Positions 59,515 to 64,000 of a stretch of 64,000 nt of DNA are shown here, one piece after another. The DNA is from Toxorhynchites rutilus septentrionalis. Taxonomy: Eukaryota; Arthropoda; Insecta; Diptera; Culicidae. The first letter of the stretch is position 1. Every line of letters starts with the position of its first letter. The stretch is from assembly GCF_029784135.1 (NCBI RefSeq), contig NC_073746.1, positions 39,447,378 to 39,511,377 of the forward strand, given 5' to 3'. The position numbers and the translations under genes are program-made. The notes beneath the pieces were generated by a model. That model ran no database searches, was not told where the DNA came from, and saw only the letters and a program-made list of their open reading frames with translations.

Positions 59515-59925
59515 TTGAAAAATAAATAAATTGAAAAATTTAAAAATTTAAAAATTCAAAAATTTTAAAATTTTAAAATTGAAAAATTGAAAAATCGAAA
59601 AATTGAAAAATTGGTAAATTGAAAAATTGGAAAATTGGAAAATTGGAGAATTGGAGAATTGGAAAATTGAAAAATTGGAAAATTAGAAATCTGGGAAATT
59701 GGAAAATTGGAAAATTGGAAAATTGGAAAATTGGAAAATTGGAAAATTTAAAAATTGGAAAATTAGAAATCTGGGAAATTGGAAAATTGGAAAATTGGAA
59801 AATTGGAAAATTGGAAAATTGGAAAATTGGAGAATTGGAAAATTGGAAAATTGGAAAATTGGAAAATTGGAAAATTGGAAAGTTGGAAAGTTGGAAAAAA
59901 GAATTGGAAAATTGGAAATTTTGGA
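59515..59925. repeat. Minisatellite of an 8-bp unit
   Basis: About 400 bp of AAAATTGG with variants (AAAATTAG, AGAATTGG, AAAGTTGG) and a degenerate AT-rich start. Two longer blocks containing AAATCTGGGAAATTGG repeat about 80 bp apart (59687 and 59767), showing a higher-order duplication. Open frames in it on both strands are by-products of the repeat. Confidence 0.95.
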
Positions 59926-60313
59926 CAGTTGGGTTCACATATTTTAACGTAAGGACTATTCACTTTTCACATACGAAAAAAACCGTCTCTTCTAAATAAG
60001 ATTTTTGGTGTGAAAATTCATAGTTGACGTAATGTTGTATTAGACTTCCACATACTCCCTTTCCTCCATATTCCATTACGTGATTAGTGAACAACCCACA
60101 ATCTAAGTTCTAATAAATAACAAGCTTTTCTGGAATACAAATCTTAGCAACAGTTAAGGCAGAATTAGTTCCCAATAATAGTTGAATCTGTCCATCAATA
60201 CAATTACTTTGAAGCACACTAATGCATATAATAAACGATCTATTGTATGACCACTGTTCAGAATGTTGAAATTGCGGATTTTCAAAAATCCAAAGAATCA
60301 AAATTAATACAGG

Positions 60314-61479: not shown

Positions 61480-62400
61480 TAGAACCTCTATTTTAAAGAG
61501 ATGACCAGTTTGGATTTACAAGAATTTTTCGCTAATTTAAATATGAATATTCCTAATCCGAAATTTATGGTTTTGACTATTCTATGTCAAAATTATTCAA
61601 TGTTTGGAAGACTCTTATTTCTTAATATTTTCAAGAACAAAACAAGTGCATTGTACACAAACAATAATTCAATATTTTATCGCAATTAATTTATATGAAA
61701 ATTATTTAACATACATCATGATAAGTGTAACACAAAACACTCAACCATTGGAGAGACTGAATAATACTGGGTATTTTGTCGTTCGGGTGTTTGTTGCATT
61801 CGGATAATTGATCATTCGAGTATTTGTCACATTCGGGTAAATATTCGTTCGGGTAAACTTTTTTCAGGTAAGTCTTACATTTGGGTAAACGTTTCTCGGG
61901 CATGTAGAATTCGGGTATTTGTTATAGAATCGACACAATAATCATCGCTTCCAACTGCTGATTCAGTACATAACCCATGTTTTCGATTTTGAAAATGGCA
62001 AAAGTACCTTTTTCCAAATCGGGAACAAAGCACATGTTTCCGAAAAAAAAAAACCTGTAAAGGTGTCCTCCAGTTCCATTCAATTATCCTTACCACTTAT
62101 ATTTTCGTACCCAAAATAAGAAAAATATTGAAAAATTTATTTGGAATTTATTAGAAAATGCTTACGTTCCCATTTCGTTACCTATTCAATGCTGCTTTGA
62201 CATAAAAACATGCGATTGAGTTGAAAAATTGTCCCAAATGTTTCATATTGATGAGAAAGTTTCTTTCCTTGTTGTTCATGAAATGCAACAATTACAAACC
62301 GTTTGTCACAGCCACACAAAAACAAATTTGCTGCAGCCTGAATGTGTATCATAACAATGTCACACTGCGATACGCCTTTGTCGTCTCACCGGCGCAACAT
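61480..62400. other. Intergenic with short ATTCGGGTA repeats
   Basis: About eight copies of TTCGGGTA and variants lie between 61775 and 61920. No gene recognised. Confidence 0.5.
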
Positions 62401-62419
62401 TAGTTGATTCTCTCAATTT

Positions 62420-62709
62420 TTTGTTGTGATACACAAACAGTAGCAACAAGAGATTGTGACTCTGAAAGAAAATATCGACTGTATCATTCGGTGATATTAT
62501 CGCTTGTTTTCAAGCAAAAACAATGATAAATTGATTCCCTGGTCAAGGGACTGAATAGAATATGAATGAATTCAGTTACAGGGTTATATTATATACGACG
62601 AGTTTAGGCACAGGGGAGATCTGTCAAATAAACTCTTTTGTATAACGTATAACGAAACGAGCAACACGTTATTATTTAGTTCTGCTCCCGAAATTTAGGA
62701 CCTAACATT
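62420..62709 (+). mobile_element. Probable 5' LTR of a Ty3/gypsy-type element
   Basis: The LTR must end just before the primer-binding-site-like TGGCGGCGAGGAT at 62711, as ...CCTAACA. A TATA-like TTATATTATATAC (62584-62596) and an AATAAA signal (62629-62634) fit an LTR. The left border is a guess based on a TG start (TGTTGTGATACAC) and could be elsewhere. The second LTR is outside the window. Confidence 0.45.
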
Positions 62710-62710
62710 T

Positions 62711-62723
62711 TGGCGGCGAGGAT
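62711..62723 (+). promoter_or_regulatory. Candidate tRNA primer-binding site
   Basis: TGGCGGCGAGGAT directly follows the putative LTR end. TGGCG-type binding sites are common in Ty3/gypsy elements; the primer tRNA is not identified. Confidence 0.5.
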
Positions 62724-63269
62724 TAAAAAAAAGAAGTGTACCAGAAAGTGCTGAAAGTGATTTATAACAAATAAACCGATACTTATATTATACGAATCAG
62801 GTTAGTGCCATACCGAGATTTCGATATTGAGAGTTTTCCTTGACCAACGCTGAAAAAAAAACATGTGCGAGAAAAAAGGTGCTACGCCCTACATAAAATA
62901 ATGACGGATGATATTTCGAGGTTATGTGTATTACCTTGCCAATTTTTTAGTGATTATGTTTCTCGAACGTGGATCGCATTGTTGCCGTAATTTTTTTTCC
63001 CAGCACATACTGGTTCATCTGCAGTATTCTGAGTAAAACGTGAACAAATAGTTAACAGCAATATGGATAGAAATAGAAAGAGAAAAAGTTCGATTGTATG
63101 GAAACGAATTGGTTTATTGGAAAAACGATGAAGTGGAAGAACTGCGAATATTCAGGGGAATGTTCTGCTTTTGATATTGACGAAAAATTCACAATTTCTG
63201 GTTCAAGGAGTGTATTATCCAATGTAAGGAAGTGATTTCTAGGTTATGGACTGTAGTGAGCATCAACTT

Positions 63270-63621
63270 AACTGTTGGTTTAGTTTCTAAGAAACTGCTG
63301 GAACCATTAGGGCTGCGGAACAGAAGAACTCCATTACTGTTGGATTGGAGTGGAAGTGGATATATGGATAGATGAGAACTGCTGGTTCCTTCTAAAATTA
63401 AAATGACAGAGGATGATCGTAAGCTGTTGGCTGAGATCGAAGTGCGAGATTGCAGAGAATAGTTTGTACATTGACTGATAAACTGCTGGTTTGTCGTCAG
63501 GACGAAAATAATCAGAACTGTTGGTTCGGAGGTGTAGAGGTTTGGAAAACGAGAAAGATGAGAACTGCTGGTTCCTTCTGAAAGGGTAATACGGAAAAAT
63601 AAGGTCGGGAGCTGTTGGCTC
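63270..63621 (+). repeat. Array of short hairpins with TGYTG loops in the retrotransposon leader
   Basis: Seven perfect small hairpins: AAC-TGTTG-GTT (63270-63280), GAAC-TGCTG-GTTC (63376-63388), AGC-TGTTG-GCT (63422-63432), AAAC-TGCTG-GTTT (63480-63492), GAAC-TGTTG-GTTC (63515-63527), GAAC-TGCTG-GTTC (63562-63574) and GAGC-TGTTG-GCTC (63609-63621). Two imperfect ones lie near 63293 and 63336. The loop is constant (TGYTG) while stem pairs vary in a compensated way. Location between LTR and gag suggests an RNA-level role such as packaging or dimerisation; this is inference. Confidence 0.7.
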
Positions 63622-63876
63622 AGAAAAAAATGTAAGGTTATATCGAATATCAGATTGGGCATATTAAGCCAATTATTTTCGTCATTTCGGGTATGGGAAA
63701 AAGTATATATTAGAAAAAAGAATAGTTCCATTTCAAATCAGGTAGAGTCACGTTGGTCAAGAGGAAAATGTATATGCATACATACATACATGTACGCGAA
63801 ATTACCCATTGGAATAAATTGATTATTTTGAATTTTGAATTTTCAAATTTAAAATTTGTATAGTGATACGAGCAAT

Positions 63877-64000
63877 ATGGAAACATTTCGGCCAGTTCGA
63901 CAATTCGATTTGAACATTGAGGACAATCGGATGGCAGCAGAGTGGGAAAAATGGAAGAGGCAACTGGAATGTTATTTCAGTACTTCTGGCGTCGTGGATC
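63877..64000 (+). CDS. Ty3/gypsy-type Gag, N-terminus, cut by window end
   Basis: ATG at 63877 opens a frame that stays open to the window edge (41 codons). It begins METFRPVRQFDLN and continues to EWEKWKRQLECYFSTSGV. The W-x2-W-x4-F/L pattern followed by a short turn and SGV resembles the start of the retrotransposon Gag domain of Ty3/gypsy elements. The leader between LTR and this ATG is more than 1.1 kb. The protein would form the capsid of a virus-like particle. pol lies beyond the window, so intactness is unknown. Confidence 0.7.
   Translation, partial: METFRPVRQFDLNIEDNRMAAEWEKWKRQLECYFSTSGVVD

Follow-up and report, generated by a model that had tools for sequence, protein, structure and literature searches.

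Retroviral packaging signals reside in the leader, and the Gag protein of the human immunodeficiency virus (HIV) needs exposed guanosines (PMC12031250, PMC7395439). The packaging signals of long terminal repeat (LTR) retrotransposons are poorly defined, and the Gag sites of yeast Ty1 and Ty3 have been described as not precisely known (PMC4974528). For mosquitoes, mag-like elements of Culex are described with a primer-binding site for a Ser or Leu tRNA and in one case for Arg, as are non-autonomous Culex elements whose LTRs enclose repeats but nothing that codes for protein (PMC3286476). Here, we describe the leader of a Ty3/gypsy element at the end of a 64,000-nt stretch of the Toxorhynchites rutilus septentrionalis genome (RefSeq assembly GCF_029784135.1, contig NC_073746.1, positions 39,447,378 to 39,511,377 of the forward strand; hereafter called the window), in which the core of a small hairpin with a UGYUG loop recurs nine times. 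This array can be ranked among structured leader signals, a known kind, with an architecture that is apparently undescribed in the open-access literature, and selection very probably maintains it as an array of RNA hairpins, acting on loop and pairing both.

The nine CTGYTGG cores are all on the forward strand, are irregularly spaced, and span 347 nt between primer-binding site and gag (Table 1). The first-pass annotation of the window had reported at least seven hairpins with a TGYTG loop between LTR and gag, on the stems GAAC/GTTC, AAAC/GTTT, GAGC/GCTC, and AGC/GCT; all four stems are present, seven of the nine units carry a stem of 3–8 bp, and the LTR segment, the primer-binding-site-like sequence, and the gag ATG confirm the position. 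Over the whole window, CTGYTGG occurs 16 times against 6.84 expected (both strands), and the seven occurrences outside the array are found on both strands. The stem of unit 9 differs from those of units 4, 7, and 8 by a two-sided change, and the 31-nt block that contains unit 4 has a second, 94% identical copy at unit 8. Window arms formed 23 contiguous pairs past the closing pair with their own partners and a mean of 14.7 with shuffled ones (P = 0.0011, 20,000 shuffles); P was 0.0027 when arms were shortened and identical units counted once, and 0.041 when paired cells were counted without contiguity. Tandem Repeats Finder reported no array across the units, hence the window array is not the plain tandem repeat that had been considered initially. 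Rfam yielded no match at gathering scores among 19 leaders, and its three matches within window 62000–64000 were all under gathering scores (E 0.57–0.6).

The same loop was recovered from related elements by genome searches covering the 902-Mb assembly, including three contigs of 206, 345, and 333 Mb. A pattern combining a hairpin with another core after it matched 31 times, and the reversed pattern never; four of these matches are in the window, 26 are spread over five copies of a single relative (L058–L062), and one is elsewhere. The leaders of these five copies hold 8–12 CTGYTGG cores each, on covarying stems mostly longer than those of the window (e.g., CUAAAAC/GUUUUAG, CAAGAC/GUCUUG); the array is not confined to the window copy. 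LTRs of about 182 bp flank both ends of L059 and L060, and L062 encodes RVT_1, RT_RNaseH, Integrase_H2C2, and rve in Ty3 order across two open frames. The UGYUG loop is kept at 64–70% gag identity (L065, L066, L068), there mainly on stems GGC/GCC and GAC/GUC. In a protein search with gag, the closest protein with a species name was from Aedes albopictus (81%), and a further protein without one reached 87%; one scan of viral contigs with the L062 gag returned no relative. Array growth by block duplication is possible, since an array block of about 140 bases is doubled in L061 compared with L060 (minus strand; 12 versus 8 leader cores). A search for loop triples alone was discarded: it gave 78 matches, whereas the control with the pattern reversed gave 594 and 651, and is thus without statistical force, and many of its matches outside the six element loci look CTG-rich or minisatellite. 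Satellite-like repeats with CTGTTGG were encountered at G000:C3:64575480-64575591, C2:36397168, and C2:216198057, one of them with a 15-base unit.

Further loops were found among more distant gag relatives. Of 738 candidates from the gag search, 150 were scored, down to 31% identity, and the resulting set of 50 leaders comprised the window copy, L058–L062, and 44 of the 150 scored matches (18 + 20 + 6); the stretch taken for L101 is partly gag. Thirty-three leaders were placed by eye in ten loop types: A (UGYUG), B (ACYGNG), C (GGNU), D (CGAG in a two-helix hairpin with a conserved GGAUU), E (UGGAU), F (CARNNGC), G (UGGG), H (YGAG), I (UNNGU), and J (ARGGG or AGGGW). CTGYTGG cores with stems are present in nine of the 50, all with 59–100% gag identity to L062, and the lowest gag identity among typed leaders is 35% (L099, L106). 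Apparent arrays in L097, L103, and L107 were seen by eye only and stand outside the 33. Over all typed leaders, 245 units are in sense and none in antisense orientation. The families have a common design, consisting of a fixed loop, covarying stems, a position before gag, and a single orientation.

Independently of any loop picked beforehand, a strict scan asked for four or more hairpins with a stem of at least 4 bp and exactly the same loop, two or more of whose stems had to differ by a change in both arms; dinucleotide shuffles and pieces of the window served as controls. Of the 50 leaders 14 passed, but none of 1000 shuffles and none of 57 window pieces did. As some leaders are copies, these 14 reduce to seven groups, which represent six loop types. 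With the scan relaxed to three hairpins, the passes were 17/50 leaders (window leader included), 5/1000 shuffles, and 0/57 window pieces. At least four hairpins per loop were present in 19/50 leaders, 0/57 window pieces, 0/7 gag-pol pieces, and 0/2000 shuffles; among 42 background pieces from L003–L023, one had four hairpins with a common loop, and these share a single stem. Arm shuffling gave P < 0.05 in 13 of 14 groups, although these family values are nominal because the loops were chosen by eye, and the strict scan is the better guide.

Unit alignments were used to follow the stems, and identical units were counted once in these alignments as well as in the arm-shuffle tests and the count of departures from Watson–Crick pairing. 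The type A alignment comprised 23 distinct units of the window and L058–L062 (units of L065, L066, and L068 were left out), and that of type B the units of L071, L076, and L086 (L075 was left out). Type A has two-sided changes at five of six stem pairs; 84.1% of its cells are paired versus 71.7% in shuffled arms, with 23 versus 7.5 two-sided cells (each reached in 0/500 shuffles), and its covariation score is 0.421 versus 0.201 shuffled (0/500), slid controls scoring 0.204 at most. The corresponding values were 83.3% versus 64.5% paired and 21 versus 9.1 two-sided cells for type E, and 83.0% versus 70.4% and 17 versus 7.1 for type B (0/500 shuffles for either type); the covariation scores of both types agree with that of type A. 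Single departures from Watson–Crick pairing within the inner four pairs were G-U in 18 cases, A-C in 7, and other in 20; this G-U excess has the direction that RNA of the sense strand would give, base composition explaining part of it. Between copies of the same family (21 copy pairs pooled), changes affected 7/858 loop, 28/1920 stem, and 186/5592 spacer sites. Of the 28 changed stem pairs 21 still pair, none by a two-sided change at such short distance, and all seven loop changes fall in type C.

Several observations weigh against selection on an RNA hairpin array. Units 2 and 3 of the window show no pairing past the closing C-G. At least as many two-sided pairs arose in 23 of 500 shuffles for type A, in 153 for type E, and in 122 for type B, and at least as many further pair types in 29, 487, and 60, respectively; both measures separate less clearly than the counts of cells. 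In the copy comparison, copies, copy pairs, and duplicates are not independent, the pooled result is driven by L058–L062, to which 153 of the 186 spacer changes belong, stems of type E change more than spacers, and loops of type C do so as well. Selection on RNA structure, as suggested in the first-pass annotation, is well supported by stems that covary within and between families around fixed loops, and by the pooled order of loop below stem below spacer, which one family drives. The free k-mer covariation scan reached z ≥ 3 in 6/50 leaders, 11/500 shuffles, and 2/57 window pieces, in an initial scan for distinct stems just three leaders could be told from every one of their 60 shuffles, and the arm-shuffle P of type F was 0.16. 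In other LTR clades (PF03732 search), no array was present in four stretches, a tiny control in which only L109 (about 720 nt) and L110 (up to 376 nt) include much leader. By eye, no array was seen in 14 of the 50 leaders (L064, L067, L069, L077–L079, L082, L084, L085, L088, L090, L093, L104, and L105), among them L064, L067, L078, and L079 with 60–83% gag identity. Eleven of these stretches show no primer-binding site and may be truncated or belong to longer leaders; L093 and L104 have the site near gag and thus a short leader, and L085, whose weak site is about 650 nt 5' of gag, nonetheless lacks an array.

Predicted folding adds to these points. The whole window leader folds no better than its shuffles (z +0.29 sense, −0.07 antisense), and the array itself has a minimum free energy z of +0.27 and a median stem probability of 0.25. 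With one leader taken per group, median in-context stem pairing does not exceed 0.4 in 11 of 14 groups, and antisense beats sense, each against its own shuffles, in 9 of 14. Far better folding than in shuffles is confined to some groups (E −5.8, H −6.6, J1 −4.8), whose antisense strands do likewise (−7.8, −3.6, and −4.9). Because the hairpins are so short, whole-leader folding energy decides little; low in-context pairing is perhaps due to arms of different units pairing together, and four-base stems are weak; a bound protein could stabilise them.

The leader is very probably a scaffold that shows one small loop (UGYUG in the window) many times to an RNA-binding partner, with stem sequence free provided both arms pair. 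Because the loops are so diverse in one genome, this partner would differ between families, and the Gag nucleocapsid is the obvious candidate. It could bind the loops in genomic RNA through exposed guanosines (each of the 31 loop variants checked contains a G), many Gag molecules per RNA would lead to selective packaging, and the loop would have been altered as gag lineages diverged. That the element's own Gag is the reader and packaging the purpose is the most economical of the readings and may be given even chances. On a more tentative level, and on balance doubtful, each lineage might carry an RNA barcode, i.e., one loop on interchangeable stems that is read only by its own Gag and keeps the packaging of the families separate; if so, the non-autonomous Culex elements mentioned above would be parasites multiplying the barcode of a coding element. 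With about ten loop types in one genome, several of them replicated, what is recognised (the loop) can be told from what carries it (the stem) by sequence alone, which makes Gag–RNA specificity and the avoidance of cross-packaging directly testable. The strict scan can be applied to any genome and requires no knowledge of the loop.

Host RNA-binding proteins instead of Gag may bind the hairpins to localise the element RNA in the germline, to export it, or to translate it. All evidence for an RNA hairpin array fits such proteins equally, and long leaders before gag often control translation; we nevertheless regard this as unlikely, as one host protein would favour a single common loop instead of about ten in one genome, and as loop type follows gag relatedness where checked (CTGYTGG with stems at 59–100% identity to L062), a link against which stand the four leaders at 60–83% that lack an array. 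Smaug-type CNGG loops were ruled out because five of the nine window loops are UGUUG.

The repeats could also act as DNA, in an enhancer or insulator array whose pairing would be the dyad symmetry of sites bound by a dimeric protein. Repeats in the 5' untranslated region (UTR) of a retrotransposon may act as insulators (PMC3286476, citing gypsy), Sirevirus repeats are palindromic and have been likened to transcriptional elements (PMC2829016), and folding does not favour the sense strand. Here, however, the half-sites vary around a fixed asymmetric centre, the opposite of a dyad DNA site, and this explanation is improbable. The uniform sense orientation of the units argues in the same direction, though duplication also preserves orientation, as does the surplus of G-U over A-C departures, which is partly a matter of base composition. 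A su(Hw)-type site had no match in the window leader at up to one mismatch to the consensus.

Equally improbable are neutral repeats, which would originate from slippage or template switching in reverse transcription, with perfect stems made by quasi-palindrome correction. Duplicated unit blocks (L061 versus L060, and the two 31-nt blocks of the window array), the loss of most cores from L002, which is another broken copy of the window element, and the broken loop–stem–spacer order in type E and C copies are what such processes could leave behind, but correction gives perfect stems and not loops that are fixed relative to spacers (7/858 versus 186/5592), and both the irregular spacing and the Tandem Repeats Finder result are at odds with neutral repeats. 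Dimerisation by kissing loops of two RNAs, the other role suggested in the first-pass annotation, has very little in its favour beyond the leader position and a candidate dimerisation palindrome at the 5' end of Ty3 RNA (PMC11381356), as 1/31 loop variants (type B, none in the window) has a self-complementary stretch of four, and one palindrome would suffice, yet arrays hold up to 19 units.

The window element is an internally deleted Ty3/gypsy copy with pol deleted 3' of gag and a broken gag frame, in which frames run from gag to integrase with no reverse transcriptase frame visible between them. Its gag has 59% identity to that of L062, with one stop, and the evidence for its LTR consists of an 83-bp match at 88%, located downstream of the window. 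The array region has one further match in the genome, in the second broken copy (L002, L057), where L002 has lost most CTGYTGG cores. The primer-binding-site-like sequence is presumably a match to the 3' end of tRNA-Ser. Related elements have TTGGCGACGAGG as putative primer-binding site (e.g., L062, L074, L086, L098, L102), and similar sites with up to two mismatches occur in 13/50 leaders. We tentatively place the elements in the mag lineage, from their resemblance to the Culex elements of PMC3286476.

Table 1 Features of the window element and its leader array (positions in the window; stem lengths are contiguous and include the closing C-G)
Feature	Position	Strand	Core start	Stem (bp)	Remarks
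Part of 5' LTR	62544..62624	+			88% identity to L056 2154-2236, 3' of truncated gag-integrase
Primer-binding-site-like sequence TGGCGGCGAGGATT	62711..62724	+			Read from sequence
Untranslated leader, ~1.15 kb	62725..63876	+			Between primer-binding-site-like sequence and gag ATG
Hairpin unit 1	63270..63280	+	63272	3	AAC-UGUUG-GUU
Unit 2	63295..63301	+	63295	1	Core CTGCTGG, only closing C-G paired
Unit 3	63337..63343	+	63337	1	Core CTGTTGG, only closing C-G paired
Hairpin unit 4	63376..63388	+	63379	4	GAAC-UGCUG-GUUC
Hairpin unit 5	63422..63432	+	63424	3	AGC-UGUUG-GCU
Hairpin unit 6	63476..63496	+	63483	8	Two G-U pairs included, loop UGCUG
Hairpin unit 7	63515..63527	+	63518	4	GAAC-UGUUG-GUUC
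Hairpin unit 8	63562..63574	+	63565	4	GAAC-UGCUG-GUUC
Hairpin unit 9	63609..63621	+	63612	4	GAGC-UGUUG-GCUC
Start of gag	63877..64000	+			ATG at 63877, broken frame

Just 5' of the LTR, 42–48 bases at window 62500–62546 recur at 16 other places in the genome at 93–100% and are probably the end of another, abundant transposon. A 23-mer like TTAGACGTAGTCCTACGTCAAAA is present upstream in 10/50 leaders (L065, L066, L069, L071, L075, L076, L077, L084, L089, and L104), nine of which have no visible primer-binding site; it is perhaps the end of another transposon joined to the leaders, or a shared 5' end. A GGTTATA...TATAACC palindrome was noted in L082 and L083 (element orientation, 0-based 74 and 627), in L083 upstream of the type I array, and a similar one is readable in L002. 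At some distance from the element, window 59573–59999 is a minisatellite with FPIFQFSN-like and GKLENWKI-like repeat frames on opposite strands.

Among known systems, the su(Hw) sites of the gypsy insulator (cited in PMC3286476) are DNA sites that are not known to have covarying stems. Like the mosquito units, they are short and follow one another between LTR and gag; their motif is absent from the window leader at up to one mismatch. Sirevirus motifs are likewise palindromic high-copy repeats of LTR retrotransposons; they are reported from the LTRs and near env, share a CGG-CCG core, and are read as regulatory, whereas the mosquito units vary in the stem and keep the centre fixed (PMC2829016). 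The first-pass annotation knew of no described family with such an array, and no account of one was found in the open-access literature, to which the search was confined, although 5' UTR repeats of mag-lineage elements are in print: cqgypsy_24, 25, and 66 of Culex are likewise Ty3/gypsy elements of a mosquito, with repeats reported as tandem repeats in a main text that does not contain "hairpin," "leader," or "untranslated" (PMC3286476). Encapsidation determinants of Ty1 and Ty3 are likewise 5' RNA signals read by Gag, their Gag sites being described as not precisely defined, and the encapsidation accounts of these two sources contain no hairpin array (PMC4974528, PMC11381356). The 5' UTR packaging signals of HIV-1 and HIV-2 share the leader position, exposed guanosines, and several sites per RNA with the arrays described here; they consist of differing hairpins in a complex fold, whereas the mosquito leaders present one loop many times on stems that are free to vary (PMC7395439, PMC12031250).
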